From NCBI RefSeq assembly GCF_003730195.1, contig NZ_QWGG01000001.1, positions 806,001-870,000 of the forward strand: a stretch of 64,000 nt of DNA, in the 5' to 3' direction. This DNA comes from Halosimplex salinum (lineage in GTDB: Archaea > Halobacteriota > Halobacteria > Halobacteriales > Haloarculaceae). A program made the translations under genes and the position numbers. The first letter of the stretch is position 1. Each line of letters starts with the position of its first letter. A model generated the notes under the pieces. That model did no database searches, was not told where the DNA came from, and worked only from the letters and a program-made list of their open reading frames with translations. Positions 2,604 to 34,195 of the stretch are shown in pieces.

Positions 2604-2971
2604 CTGGTTATCGGAGAGATACGGGGGACCGACAAATCACTTCGGTCGGCGCGTCGAAGAGTTTTATCCCCTCGGAGTCTCCACTCCCAGTGAGGAACAC
2701 GGAATGTTCGCCGATCACACGACAGGTCGCCGGGGCTCGAGGTGGACAGCGCGGGTGCGAGTGCGCCTGCCGCCGACACGAAGACCGCGACGGCCCGTAC
2801 GACCTACTGGAGGGGGAGAGAGGAGTTCGGGCTGGAGCGAGAGTGGGAGTCGGAGCGAGCCCGGACCGGCCCGGACGGCTCACGTCCCCTCGCGGGAACT
2901 CGGTTCCTGCCCGAGAACCACCGCGCTGACCGGCTTCGGCCGCGGCGCGACCGAATCGCCACCATCGAACC
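2604..2971. other. Intergenic region before livH
   Basis: No convincing gene is present. The open frames here lack haloarchaeal codon bias and have basic, Arg/Pro-rich translations typical of non-coding G+C-rich DNA. A TTTTAT motif near 2660 could be a TATA box for the liv operon, but it would give a leader of nearly 290 bases. I see no hairpin that would suggest a riboswitch. Confidence 0.5.
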
Positions 2972-21716: not shown

Positions 21717-22757
21717 CTAATGGCCCCCCACCTCCTCGACGCCGTAGAGCCCCTGCGGTTTCACGACGAGCATCCCGACGAGGATGAGGAACACGGCCAT
21801 CTCGGGGAGCCACGTCCACGTGACGACGTTCTGGAACCACCAGGTCGTGGTCGCGTCGGCCATGCCGACGACAAGCGCGCCCGCGACGGTGCCGCGGAAG
21901 GTACCGAGGCCGCCGATGATGACGACGACGAACGCCGGCAGGAGCGTCTCCGCCGCGAGCGGCACGCTCGCGCCCCAGACGGGGTCCCACATCAGGAGCG
22001 CGCCGGCGACGCCGGCGATACCCGCACCGAGCGCGAACACCACCGTGAAGACGCGCCGCACGTCGATGCCGAGAGCCTCGGCCATCTCGGCGTCCTCGCT
22101 GCCGGCGCGGATGTACAGGCCGTACCGGGTCCGGGTGAGGAACGCCCAGATGGCGGCGACCGTCGCGACGCCGAGCAGTATCTCGAACACCGCCAGCCCG
22201 CGAATCGAGAGCGGTCCGAGCGACTGGTCGGTCGCGAGGAACGCCGGCTTCGTGCCGAGGGCGCCCTGCCACTCGGAGATAGGCTGGAGCCCGTAGAACT
22301 GGACGACGATCCGGACGACCTCCTCGAGGACGAGCGTCAGCCCGAACGTCAGGAGGATCTGGTAGATCGGCGGCCGGTCGTACAGTTCGCGGATCAGTCC
22401 GACCTCCATGATACCGCCGAGGAGCGAGAGCGCGGCGAACACGACCACGAGCGCGCCGAAGAAGTACGCGAGCCGCGTCCACTGCCCGGTCGCGCTCCCG
22501 ACGAGGACGACCATGACGACGCCCGCCAGGTACGCGCCGATCATCGTCAGCGACCCGTGGGCGAAGTTGAGCACGCCCATGAGTCCGAATATCAGCGTGA
22601 GGCCGCTGGCTATCATCACGTAGATGGCCGACTTCGCCAGCCCCTCGACGAGCACGCTCACCAGATTGGTGGGGCGGAGGAACTGGCCCAGTCCGTCGAC
22701 GAAGCCCGTCTGGAGGGCGAACGCGGCCAGTTCCGGCAGGAGCAGGGGTACCGTCAT
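21717..22757 (-). CDS. livH: ABC transporter permease LivH (second system)
   Basis: The 346-residue LivH-family permease has eight to nine membrane segments. Its hallmark GLTLIFGLMGVLNFAHGSLTMIGAY lies near residue 50 and the coupling loop TRYGLYIRAGSEDAEMAEALGID near residue 210. The start at 22757 overlaps the livF stop by ATGA. The long frame running further upstream is livF read out of phase. It forms the channel with LivM. Confidence 0.92.
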   Translation of the reverse strand: MTVPLLLPELAAFALQTGFVDGLGQFLRPTNLVSVLVEGLAKSAIYVMIASGLTLIFGLMGVLNFAHGSLTMIGAYLAGVVMVVLVGSATGQWTRLAYFFGALVVVFAALSLLGGIMEVGLIRELYDRPPIYQILLTFGLTLVLEEVVRIVVQFYGLQPISEWQGALGTKPAFLATDQSLGPLSIRGLAVFEILLGVATVAAIWAFLTRTRYGLYIRAGSEDAEMAEALGIDVRRVFTVVFALGAGIAGVAGALLMWDPVWGASVPLAAETLLPAFVVVIIGGLGTFRGTVAGALVVGMADATTTWWFQNVVTWTWLPEMAVFLILVGMLVVKPQGLYGVEEVGGH

Positions 22758-23452
22758 GCCGAGAGATACCTCCTGAGTCGTTCGTCGTCCGCCGTGACTT
22801 CCGCGGTGTCGCCGTCGTCGACGACCCGGCCCTTGTCGAGCACGTAGAACCGATCCGCCAGATCGAGCGCCAGCGGGAGGTTCTGCTCGACGACGAGCAG
22901 GGTCGTCTCGCGGGCGGCGTCGTTCAGCGCCTCGGCCACGTCCGCCACGATCTGCGGCGCGAGCCCCTCGCTCGGTTCGTCCACGAGGAGGAGGTCGTTC
23001 TCGCCGACGAGGCCCCGCGCGAGCGCGAGCATCTGCTGTTGCCCGCCCGAGAGCGTGCCGGCCTCCTGGTCGCGTCGCTCTTCGAGGATCGGGAACGTGT
23101 CGAAGGCGATCGCGAGCGCCTCGCCCGTGTCCGCGTCGTCGGGGATCGCCACCCGGACGTTCTCGCCGACGGTGAGTTGCGAGAAGATCCGGCGGTCCTC
23201 GGGGATCCACCCGACGCCGCGGTCGGCCACCTCGTGCGTCTCGAGGTCGACGAGCTGTTCGCCGCGGTACTCGATGCTGCCCTCCCGTGGCGGTGTCAAC
23301 TGGAGAATCGAGCGGAGCGTCGTCGTCTTGCCGACGCCGTTTCGCCCGACGAGCGCCACCACCTCGCCCTCGTCGACGGAGAGTGTGACGCCCTCCAGCA
23401 CGTGGCTCTCGCCGTAGTAGGTCTCGACGCCGTCGAGTTCGAGGAGGGTCAC
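22754..23452 (-). CDS. livF: ABC transporter ATP-binding protein LivF (second system)
   Basis: The 232-residue ATPase has Walker A GRNGVGKTT, signature LSGGQQQMLALARGL, Walker B LLLVDEPSEGLAP and the LivF-type IPEDRRIFSQLTVGEN region. The start is a GTG at 23450-23452. Its first bases are part of GTGA, where the TGA closes a 25-codon micro-ORF made of tandem repeats (23449-23526). The LivF frame itself is open through the repeats but has no start codon there, so initiation at GTG by coupling is the likely mode. Confidence 0.92.
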   Translation of the reverse strand: MTLLELDGVETYYGESHVLEGVTLSVDEGEVVALVGRNGVGKTTTLRSILQLTPPREGSIEYRGEQLVDLETHEVADRGVGWIPEDRRIFSQLTVGENVRVAIPDDADTGEALAIAFDTFPILEERRDQEAGTLSGGQQQMLALARGLVGENDLLLVDEPSEGLAPQIVADVAEALNDAARETTLLVVEQNLPLALDLADRFYVLDKGRVVDDGDTAEVTADDERLRRYLSA

Positions 23453-23526
23453 GCCGACGACCCCCCGTTCATGCGACGCCTCCCGTTCATGCGACGCCTC
23501 CCGTTCATGCGACGCCTCCCGTTCAT
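23449..23526 (-). CDS. Candidate 25-codon micro-ORF linking livG and livF
   Basis: The ORF starts with ATGA that contains the livG stop (23523-23525) and ends with TGA inside the GTGA start of livF. Its translation is four near-identical MNGRRR-type hexads and a GSSA-like end. Each 18-base unit carries a GGAGG purine core 5 bases before an ATG. The peptide may have no role of its own; passing ribosomes from livG to livF would be enough. It is read directly from the sequence, but expression is unproven. Confidence 0.4.
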   Translation of the reverse strand: MNGRRRMNGRRRMNGRRRMNGGSSA

Positions 23527-23537
23527 GCGACGCCTCC
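23466..23537. repeat. Four tandem 18-base repeats at the livG-livF junction
   Basis: Units starting at 23466, 23484, 23502 and 23520 are identical: CGTTCATGCGACGCCTCC on the plus strand. Read on the minus strand each contains GGAGG, five spacer bases and ATGA. The most upstream unit (in gene direction) holds the livG stop. This is a multiplied translation-initiation cassette. Confidence 0.9.
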
Positions 23538-24347
23538 CGAGTCGGTGTCGCGGCCCGCTCCCGACTCGTCGGCGTTCCGGTCCTCGAGGTCGCCGGGTTC
23601 GTAGCCGCCCAGATAGGCTTCCTGCACGGCCGGGTTCTCGCGGACGGCGCTCGGTTCGTCGTCGGCGATGACCGCGCCCTGGTTGAGCACGACGACTCGA
23701 TCCGAGACCTCCATGACGATGTCCATGTTGTGCTCGACCAGCAGGACGGCGTGGTCCTCGGCCACGTCCTCGATGAGGTCGACGATGTCGCCGACGCTCT
23801 CGGAGGAGACGCCGGCGTTTGGTTCGTCGAGCAGGAGTACGTCCGGGTCGCCCGCGAGCGCGACGGCGACCTCTAGCTGGCGACTCGCCCCGTGACTGAG
23901 GTTCTGCGCGACGTCGTCGGCGCGGTCGGCGAGGCCGACCCGTTCGAGGACCGCGCGGGCCTCGGCGACGTACTCGTCGTAGGCGTCGACGTTGCGCCAG
24001 AACGTCGCGGCGTCGTCGCCGTGGGCCTGCGCGGCCACGCGGACGTTCTCCAGCACCGTGAGCGTCGGGAAGACGTTCGTGATCTGGTAGGAGCGGTGGA
24101 CGCCCATCGCGGCCGTCTCGTCGGGCGAGGCGTCGGTCACGTCGACCCAGTCGCCGTCGCGTCGCAACTCGATCGACCCGGCGGTCGGTTCGAGGACCCC
24201 GGTCAGGAGGTCGAAGAACGTCGTCTTGCCGGCGCCGTTGGGGCCGATGAGCGAGCAGAGCTCCGTACCGAGTTCGAAGTCCACCTCGTCGACGGCGGTG
24301 AGGCCGCCGAACCGCTTCGTGAGTCCTGTCGTCCGCAGCATGCTCAC
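23523..24347 (-). CDS. livG: ABC transporter ATP-binding protein LivG (second system)
   Basis: The 274-residue ATPase has Walker A GPNGAGKTT, Q-loop SYQITNVFPTLTVLEN, a signature written LSHGASRQLEVAVAL (LSHG rather than LSGG, a known variant in Liv/Urt ATPases), Walker B LLLDEPNAG and the H-loop EHNMD. The GTG at 24345-24347 overlaps the binding-protein stop as GTGA, with an ATG two codons later. Its last codons lie in the first 18-base repeat, and its stop forms ATGA with the micro-ORF. Confidence 0.9.
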   Translation of the reverse strand: MSMLRTTGLTKRFGGLTAVDEVDFELGTELCSLIGPNGAGKTTFFDLLTGVLEPTAGSIELRRDGDWVDVTDASPDETAAMGVHRSYQITNVFPTLTVLENVRVAAQAHGDDAATFWRNVDAYDEYVAEARAVLERVGLADRADDVAQNLSHGASRQLEVAVALAGDPDVLLLDEPNAGVSSESVGDIVDLIEDVAEDHAVLLVEHNMDIVMEVSDRVVVLNQGAVIADDEPSAVRENPAVQEAYLGGYEPGDLEDRNADESGAGRDTDSGGVA

Positions 24348-25810: not shown

Positions 25811-25890
25811 GATGTCTATAATATGCGCAGTAGACTCCATATCCCCTCGGGTTCACATGTTAACGAACGAGTTCGGGAGTGCGAAACGGC

Positions 25891-25950
25891 GGTCCGGTCG
25901 GTAGGAGTGCGGTTCGGTCGGTAGGAGTGCGGTCCGGTCGATAGAAGTTC
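25891..25950. repeat. Three tandem 20-base repeats upstream of the second liv operon
   Basis: Units at 25891, 25911 and 25931 follow GGTCCGGTCGGTAGGAGTGC with one to four changes. They lie 81-140 bases before the binding-protein start and end 32 bases before the HTH regulator's stop. A period of 20 bases is close to two helical turns, as expected of a multi-site operator. Confidence 0.75.
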
Positions 25951-25981
25951 GGCGGAGGGAGAAGCGGTCGCGTGCGGGCAG

Positions 25982-32753: not shown

Positions 32754-34151
32754 CTATGCCCGGTCGACCAGCGCGGCTTCCAGCACCTCGAGCGGGTGGC
32801 GGACCTCGTAGCCCGACCCGTGTTCCATCTGCATCGCGCAGGTCGGACACTCCGTCATGCCGGTCTCGCCCTCCGCGTGCTCCATGTGCTCGAACATCTC
32901 CTCGCCGATAGCCATCGACTTCTCGTACTTCTCCTCCTTCCAGCCGTAGGTGCCCGAGATGCCCGAACAGGAGTCGCCCACGTCCTCCACGTCGACGCCG
33001 TCCAGTTCCCTGAATAGCTCGACCGCCTGCCTGTCCAGTCCCTGATTGCGGGCGTGACACGGCGCGTGGTAGGCGAACTCCTCGGCGAGTTCGCCGGCCA
33101 CGTCGGCCTCGGCGACGGCGCCCGAGAGGTCCTCGTGGATCCGGAGGTACTCGACGGCCTCGTAGGTGTGAGCCGCCACGTCTGCCGTCCCCTCGAAGTC
33201 GAACAGTTCGGGGTACTCCTGGCGGAGCGACATCGAGCAGGACGTACACGAGCAGATCGCGTCGAAGCCCTGATCGACCAGATCCGAGAGCGAGGAGACG
33301 TTGACTTCCGCGTCGCGGCGGGCGTCGTCCAGCATGCCGTTCGCGAACATCGGCGTGCCCGAACAGCCCTGCTCCGGGACGACGATCTCGTAGCCGAACC
33401 GCTCGAACAGTCGGACCATGGCCTTCCCCACCTCCGGGGTGTTGTAGTTGGCGTAGCAGCCGTGGAAGTACGCGACCTTCTTGTCGGCGGCGGGGTCCTC
33501 GCCGCGCCGTTTCCGGTGCTCGCGGGCGCGGGCTCTCGACCCCGCCGCGGCCCCCTCGCTGGCCCACCAGTCGCGGAACGTCTCCGTCGCGAACGCCGGG
33601 AACTCCCGCTCGCTGGTGACGCCGAGGGTCTTCTCCATGACCCACCGGGCCGGACCGAAGTTCATCGCGACGTTCGCGAGGCGCGGGACTTTGCTCGCGA
33701 CGAACGCGGAGATGCGGTAGTTGGCGAGGATCCGGTTGCGCCAGTACTCCGTCGAGAGCTTGCTCATCTGCTCGTCGACGTAGCGCCCGCGGGTGGTGTT
33801 GTGCATCTGTGAGAGGGGGACGCCCGACGGGCAGGCGTCGTCACAGCGCATGCAGTTCGAGCAGTCCATCACCGAGTCGTCGACCTCGAAGTCCTCGTCG
33901 GTCTGGGTGAGCCGCCACTGCTCGGGCCCCTGGAACTTCGGGCCGGGGAAGTCGTCGTCGACCTCCGCGACGGGGCAACTGGTGTCGCAGGAGGTGCACT
34001 TGTAACAGGAGTCGGCGCCGGGCCGGAGGTCGAACTCCCTGGCGTCGCCGAAGACGTCGACGGTCTCGTGTTCCTCGTTCGGGTTCGGTTCCACCGGGTC
34101 GAAGTCCGTCGTGGGTTCTGTGTCGCTCATCGTGTCTTCCGTGTCGCTCAT
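32754..34151 (-). CDS. glpC: Anaerobic-type glycerol-3-phosphate dehydrogenase subunit C
   Basis: The 465-residue iron-sulfur subunit delivers electrons from GlpAB to the membrane. Two 4Fe-4S motifs lie in the N-terminal part (CYKCTSCDTSCPVAE near residue 45 and CSNCMRCDDACPSGVP near residue 90). Two CCG domains follow, with GCYANYNTP, GCSGTPMFANGM, CTSCSMSLRQEYPELF and CSGISGTYGWK. It starts with a short duplicated MSDTE unit, so either ATG 34151 or 34130 could be used. ATG 34151 overlaps the stop of a 15-codon micro-ORF lying between it and glpB. Confidence 0.94.
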   Translation of the reverse strand: MSDTEDTMSDTEPTTDFDPVEPNPNEEHETVDVFGDAREFDLRPGADSCYKCTSCDTSCPVAEVDDDFPGPKFQGPEQWRLTQTDEDFEVDDSVMDCSNCMRCDDACPSGVPLSQMHNTTRGRYVDEQMSKLSTEYWRNRILANYRISAFVASKVPRLANVAMNFGPARWVMEKTLGVTSEREFPAFATETFRDWWASEGAAAGSRARAREHRKRRGEDPAADKKVAYFHGCYANYNTPEVGKAMVRLFERFGYEIVVPEQGCSGTPMFANGMLDDARRDAEVNVSSLSDLVDQGFDAICSCTSCSMSLRQEYPELFDFEGTADVAAHTYEAVEYLRIHEDLSGAVAEADVAGELAEEFAYHAPCHARNQGLDRQAVELFRELDGVDVEDVGDSCSGISGTYGWKEEKYEKSMAIGEEMFEHMEHAEGETGMTECPTCAMQMEHGSGYEVRHPLEVLEAALVDRA

Positions 34152-34195
34152 CGGACCGCCTCCGCGTCACTCGCCGCGTCGTCCGTGCCGCTCAT
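34148..34195 (-). CDS. Candidate 15-codon micro-ORF between glpB and glpC
   Basis: ATG at 34193-34195 overlaps the glpB stop as ATGA, and its own TGA (34148-34150) overlaps the glpC ATG as ATGA. The peptide [15 protein letters not shown] resembles the start of GlpC (MSDTEDT). The sequence before both ATGAs is nearly the same (GCGGAGGCGG then two to three bases and CGATGA), indicating duplication of the glpB-glpC junction. A coupling role is inferred. Confidence 0.4.
   Translation of the reverse strand: MSGTDDAASDAEAVR

Follow-up and report, generated by a model that had tools for sequence, protein, structure and literature searches.

The livG-like and livF-like genes of the haloarchaeon Halosimplex salinum are separated by a short tandem array that we think acts as a translational relay, keeping the two genes coupled across the spacer between them. 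Judged from the sequence of this and related junctions, we give this reading a probability of about 0.8. The array lies in a 64,000-nucleotide stretch of DNA, referred to here as the window, that comes from a 5.07-Mb draft assembly of 28 contigs (G000). A preliminary description of the same DNA had already likened the array to a coupling device, and the comparisons reported below support that likeness.

The livG-like protein ends in ...GGVA, and its TGA (23525-23523) lies within an ATGA (23526-23523) that also contains the start codon of a mini-ORF (Table 1). The stop codon of the mini-ORF in turn overlaps the start codon of the livF-like gene in a GTGA (23452-23449). Along the minus strand the order is the livG-like gene (24347-23523), three copies of ATGAACGGGAGGCGTCGC, one copy of ATGAACGGGGGGTCGTCGGC, and the livF-like gene beginning GTGACC (23452). 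This agrees with the preliminary description, which reported four perfect 18-base repeats with ATGA, a livG stop inside the first of them, and a 25-codon ORF of MNGRRR repeats (23526-23449) ending in the livF GTGA. The repeats were confirmed on the minus strand both by their coordinates and by TRF, for which this was the top-scoring array of the window (23455-23539, period 18, 4.7 copies, score 154). A GGAGG motif is located six nucleotides, not the five given earlier, upstream of each of the four in-phase ATGs of the mini-ORF (23526, 23508, 23490, and 23472). The livF GTG is preceded only by GGGGGG, 8 nt before it. Because 18 is divisible by three, the four ATGs share one frame and open a single mini-ORF rather than four. 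The array is closed by a degenerate unit, GGGGGTCGTCGGCGTGA, which together with the preceding ATGAAC is the counterpart of the 20-nt single-relay spacer found in a sister genome (G007).

The distance between livG and livF is 70 nt, and RTGA overlaps connect the two genes only by way of the mini-ORF. The best NCBIfam matches of the two proteins are UrtD/LivG and UrtE/LivF, respectively; both fall under the curated cut-offs, so naming should stop at 'liv-like'. A longer livF with an upstream start was ruled out, as the livF frame contains no ATG, GTG, or TTG upstream of 23452 within the array. We also ruled out that the array is a dispersed repeat, since the 18-mer GGAGGCGTCGCATGAACG is unique within the genome, with no copy beyond this junction. 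The stability of RNA structure predicted for the array was not above that of shuffled sequence (z = +1.1), leaving a structural mode of control without support.

Table 1. Features of the livG-livF junction in the window and of other relays. Locations without a prefix refer to the window, except for L088.
Feature	Location	Strand	Remarks
livG-like ATP-binding subunit, HAAT (branched-chain-amino-acid/urea-type) ABC transporter	23523-24347	-	NCBIfam hits
Four perfect tandem 18-bp units, GGAGGCGTCGCATGAACG	23520-23537, 23502-23519, 23484-23501, 23466-23483	-	
Relay mini-ORF, 25 codons	23449-23526	-	MNGRRRMNGRRRMNGRRRMNGGSSA, then stop
Degenerate terminal unit, GGGGGTCGTCGGCGTGA	23449-23465	-	contains livF start
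livF-like ATP-binding subunit	22754-23452	-	begins GTGACC (GTG 23452-23450)
Second relay mini-ORF, between glpB and glpC	34148-34195	-	an RTGA overlap with a preceding GGAGG at each end
Third relay in the source genome (L196)	G000:C7:21015-21055		MTGAPGGVR, then stop; between ABC permease and ABC ATPase genes
livG-livF junction of an uncultured Halobacteria MAG (L088)	2637-2766		three serial 14-codon mini-ORFs, 41-bp units
20-bp array in G418			acyl-CoA ligase-like gene to next gene; VTDGGDS, then stop, twice
44-bp array in G337			cheY-like to histidine-phosphotransfer/CheA-like gene; three mini-ORFs
Halosimplex relay ORFs at livG-livF			7/12/12/12/25 codons
Other small relay ORFs at livG-livF			L045, 8 codons; L087 (Halobacterium bonnevillei), 13; L076, 15; L256, 45
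Halorussus-type relay ORFs at livG-livF			106-161 codons; L055, L057, L063, L066, L079, L082

The proposed course of translation is as follows. A ribosome would end livG at its TGA and reinitiate at the overlapping ATG or at any of the three in-phase SD-ATGs beyond it, translate up to 25 codons of the mini-ORF, terminate at the TGA that overlaps the livF GTG, and reinitiate there. We infer both reinitiation itself and the use of each ATG from this layout. Termination-reinitiation coupling at ATGA/GTGA overlaps has been described in Haloferax volcanii and E. coli (Huber 2019, PMC6728339; Huber 2023, PMC10666635). In H. volcanii, which belongs to a related genus, coupling was substantially reduced at a distance of 13-14 nt and was near zero at 22-23 nt (PMC10666635). 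Given this strong distance dependence, genes 70 nt apart would not be expected to couple unless bridged, and the translated mini-ORF is the likely bridge. Like known RTGA coupling, the junction combines an SD with 4-nt RTGA overlaps between unidirectional genes, which are often those for subunits of one complex. The systems studied by Huber are direct gene-to-gene overlaps, whereas the window uses a bridging mini-ORF; a text search of PMC10666635 yielded no mention of mini-ORFs as bridges or of overlaps that had been duplicated.

Comparison of 103 distinct haloarchaeal livG-livF junctions showed a plain 4-nt RTGA overlap in 65, with an SD-like purine stretch ahead of it (e.g. GGAGGTGTCGCGTGA). 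In a further 17, livF starts at the same RTGA and has an N-terminal extension. As judged from these junctions, the ancestral livG-livF state is a 4-nt RTGA overlap. A spacer between two RTGA sites can have one of three phases. In the livF frame it is an N-terminal extension, in the relay phase the first ORF terminates upon reaching the livF RTGA, and off phase the first ORF crosses the livF start out of frame. All 16 out-of-frame livG-livF spacers are in the relay phase and open; they consist of 7 to 161 codons or, in one case, of a chain, and no off-phase spacer was present among the 103 distinct junctions. Junctions that were mis-called or not RTGA were set aside (L078, L084, and the TAG-c-GTG Halomicrobium junctions L038, L116, and L117). 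The three mini-ORFs in the uncultured Halobacteria MAG encode similar peptides (VTTHSDAPQGGGVS, VTTRSDTSRGGDVS, and VITRGDTPQGGGVS), and each ORF ends in the GTGA of the next one. One Halorussus-type spacer (L079) contains 27-bp repeats. The Halorussus-type spacers also carry a G+C-rich inverted-repeat element, AAAGGGGC...GGGGGCTTTC; an Rfam search with five of these loci returned no match.

The same-genus genomes matched were those of H. pelagicum, H. carlsbadense, and the MAG QS_9_67_15. A single seven-codon relay (MNARETP) is present in the sister genome G007, and relays of 12 codons are found in each of H. carlsbadense, G003, and G004. H. pelagicum has a plain overlap, yet it is nested among relay bearers on a LivG+LivF tree. 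The relay thus appears to have been lost in this species, which suggests that it is not essential. The Halosimplex livG-livF junctions contain 1, 2, 2, 2, 2, and 5 SD-RTGA units; of the five in the window, the last, which lies at livF, is degenerate. Of the sister species G208 and G304, the former has one more SD unit at two homologous junctions: 3 versus 2 where the flanking proteins are 93% and 96% identical, and 4 versus 3 where they are 97% and 95% identical. These comparisons bear out the earlier suggestions that the cassette was amplified and that its unit number is evolutionarily unstable. An identical, fixed copy number in many genera, named in the preliminary description as evidence that would count against it, was not what we found, given the range of 1 to 5 within Halosimplex.

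These sequences indicate that the window array is a recent expansion of a pre-existing relay. In the first change, the ancestral 4-nt RTGA overlap would have been altered to leave a short relay ORF, as in the 7-12 codons of other Halosimplex. Three 18-bp units would have followed through slippage between two GGG(A/G)GG blocks of similar sequence; because these units extend the mini-ORF without a change of frame, the relay stays intact. We infer the order and mechanism of these duplications from the junctions of present-day species.

A counterpoint to the relay is that the GGGGGG before the livF GTG is a weak SD, from which livF could initiate independently. It could then be argued that the array is a neutral minisatellite, which slippage produced in an intergenic gap next to a self-initiating livF, with the in-phase ORF being incidental. 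Consistent with this, the array occurs in this genome only, the sister G007 has one unit, and the frame is kept simply by the arithmetic of 18-bp steps. However, the single-unit relay phase is older than the array and common to most Halosimplex. Neutrality also predicts something other than the relay phase that we observed in every out-of-frame livG-livF spacer and in 57 of the 58 junctions from the class-wide scans described below, making this explanation unlikely. An error of assembly in the copy number of the array is extremely improbable. Although the assembly is a draft, the 72-bp array is shorter than an ordinary short read, and independent arrays of like kind are present in G418, G337, G208, and G431.

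A tunable rheostat, in which slippage-varied numbers of SD-ATG units set the fraction of ribosomes reaching livF and hence the LivF:LivG ratio, would be in keeping with the variation among related species here and at two other junctions, and with the four in-phase SD-ATG entry points that feed one terminal TGA/GTGA. We nonetheless regard it as doubtful, since extra units would add little if the first ATGA already allows efficient reinitiation, and in the serial chains seen elsewhere added units could reduce output. Similarly improbable is the broader proposal that SD-ATG copy number is a slippage-driven, heritable, and reversible dial on archaeal hand-over, with this array as one case of haloarchaea-wide evolvable relays. 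If this were true, the in-phase array would provide several ribosome entry points that set the LivF:LivG ratio; any such dosage effect is conjectural.

To place the relay in a wider setting, we scanned 391 Halobacteria genomes, allowing two SD spacings (6 and 7) and motifs 3 to 33 nt apart. As a junction filter, in place of gene calls, we required an open frame of 80 codons or more on each side, and neither the scan pattern nor this filter refers to phase. A three-unit pattern matched only the window, G418, G337, and a low-complexity coding sequence in G199. In the two-unit scan with SD spacing 6, real junctions seemed to have a spacing of 2 mod 3. Most of the spacing-6 matches with d = 0 mod 3 (e.g. 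the E/D-rich G199) were excluded because they are away from gene junctions and resemble in-frame coding repeats. The scan with SD spacing 7 was made as a check on the phase rule suggested by the first scan. It yielded 48 junction-like chains purely in the relay phase, one mixed in-phase-plus-relay chain (L302) of the same build as the window array, one off phase (L267), and one in frame, and a reversed control pattern gave far fewer matches than the true pattern. The pooled scans contain 57 pure relay chains versus 1 off phase, with 51 distinct downstream N-termini (binomial p about 2e-16; a conservative 44:1 gives 1e-12), although sequences within a genus are related and independent events are fewer than these junction counts. 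Some of the relay junctions have 2-4 tandem units.

The flanking genes that we sampled belong to real families, including cobalamin TP-methylase/CbiA, RsmB-F/DUF7122, MoeA/MoeA, ABC ATPase/ABC-2 permease, solute-binding protein, and glpB/glpC. The sole off-phase junction found, L267, has lost 1 nt from a relay that the sister species (L266 and L268) retain intact, providing a natural test for loss of coupling. The device that had been seen as a single case is one member of a broad haloarchaeal class, overlooked earlier, in which the usual unit length is 2 mod 3. A 24-bp array at L315 (G260:C1:949429-949492) has three GGAGG-7-RTGA units in phase like those of the window; its upstream frame is not open.

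The relays owe their origin at least partly to tandem duplication of the overlap. A duplication of 2 mod 3 gives a relay, one of 0 mod 3 an in-frame extension, and one of 1 mod 3 an off-phase spacer, and the near absence of off-phase spacers is most simply read as selection. The 18-bp unit of the window (0 mod 3) is the rarer form. Because this step falls inside an existing relay, each unit adds six codons and one in-phase SD-ATG and no chain results. At L193 the mini-ORF encodes MNTETTAADGGDL, in which the start of gene B (MNTETTAA) is joined to the end of gene A (TTAADGGDL), a plain case of duplication. The mini-ORFs at L276, L182, L298, and L311 look similar. Spacer identity between first and last units was 0.58 against 0.32 across loci. 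First and last units are at least 75% alike overall in only 2 of the 57 relays; this ruled out that all relays are recent duplications and indicates that many are old or were formed by other changes.

The peptides themselves vary. The mini-ORF of the window has an SD and a start, and its strongly basic MNGRRR repeats are unusual among haloarchaeal products, as might be expected if it encoded a functional basic peptide. This is very improbable given that livG-livF relay peptides have no clear shared sequence between genera, that Halosimplex species also differ (MNARETP, VSAPRSPRRWPR, VSARRPSGRCAT, and VSVPRPLGRWFA), and that several relay peptides elsewhere resemble chimeras of B's start and A's end.

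Mycobacterial MIRUs, the closest known analogue, contain repeat-borne ORFs that are described as coupled at -4 nt (Brown and Wade 2025, PMC12548453, citing Supply 1997). The window repeat ORF resembles a MIRU in its -4 nt spacing to the flanking genes, and in spacing only. MIRUs are a dispersed, apparently mobile bacterial repeat family, whereas the haloarchaeal units are locus-specific; the 18-mer occurs at this junction only, and the other haloarchaeal relays are unrelated in sequence. MIRU copy number varies between strains, which is used in MIRU-VNTR typing. At the livG-livF junction, the differences in repeat number are those between species. Short upstream ORFs that deliver a ribosome are reported for synthetic bicistronic designs (PMC12548453) and for the iraD uORF (PMC5574718). 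Like these, the relay mini-ORF is a short ORF that perhaps serves only to pass a ribosome onward; the uORFs and bicistronic designs precede the first gene or are engineered, whereas the relay would take its ribosome from an upstream gene and pass it to the next.

No account of archaeal relay mini-ORFs or of chains of them came up in the open literature searched, which does not prove that none exists. The preliminary description, which likewise named no such archaeal device, overlooked the bacterial analogue. Haloarchaeal relays are apparently a new and widespread archaeal variant of termination-reinitiation coupling, the component parts of which, archaeal RTGA coupling and MIRU ORFs coupled at -4 nt, are already known. 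For specialists, the most useful part is the general phase rule. In both archaea and bacteria it is still debated whether a ribosome, after termination, scans across a gap or has to encounter a start immediately. Because wrong-phase spacers are almost never kept, the 57:1 rule, which spans many genera and gene pairs, provides evolutionary evidence that haloarchaeal ribosomes do restart at the first RTG that overlaps. Relays also offer coupled operons a simple route to tolerate duplications at gene junctions, provide natural test constructs by the dozen, among them chains of 2-3 mini-ORFs, and reveal a class of easily overlooked ORFs with only 7 to 16 codons.

The source genome contains other relays in addition to the one at livG-livF (Table 1). 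Near the second of these, the start of glpC has a 21-bp in-frame duplication (TRF 34109-34153). Elsewhere in the window, a 20-bp tandem repeat of 3.2 copies (25889-25952) is located just upstream of the start of a substrate-binding protein gene (25840, minus strand) and is possibly regulatory.
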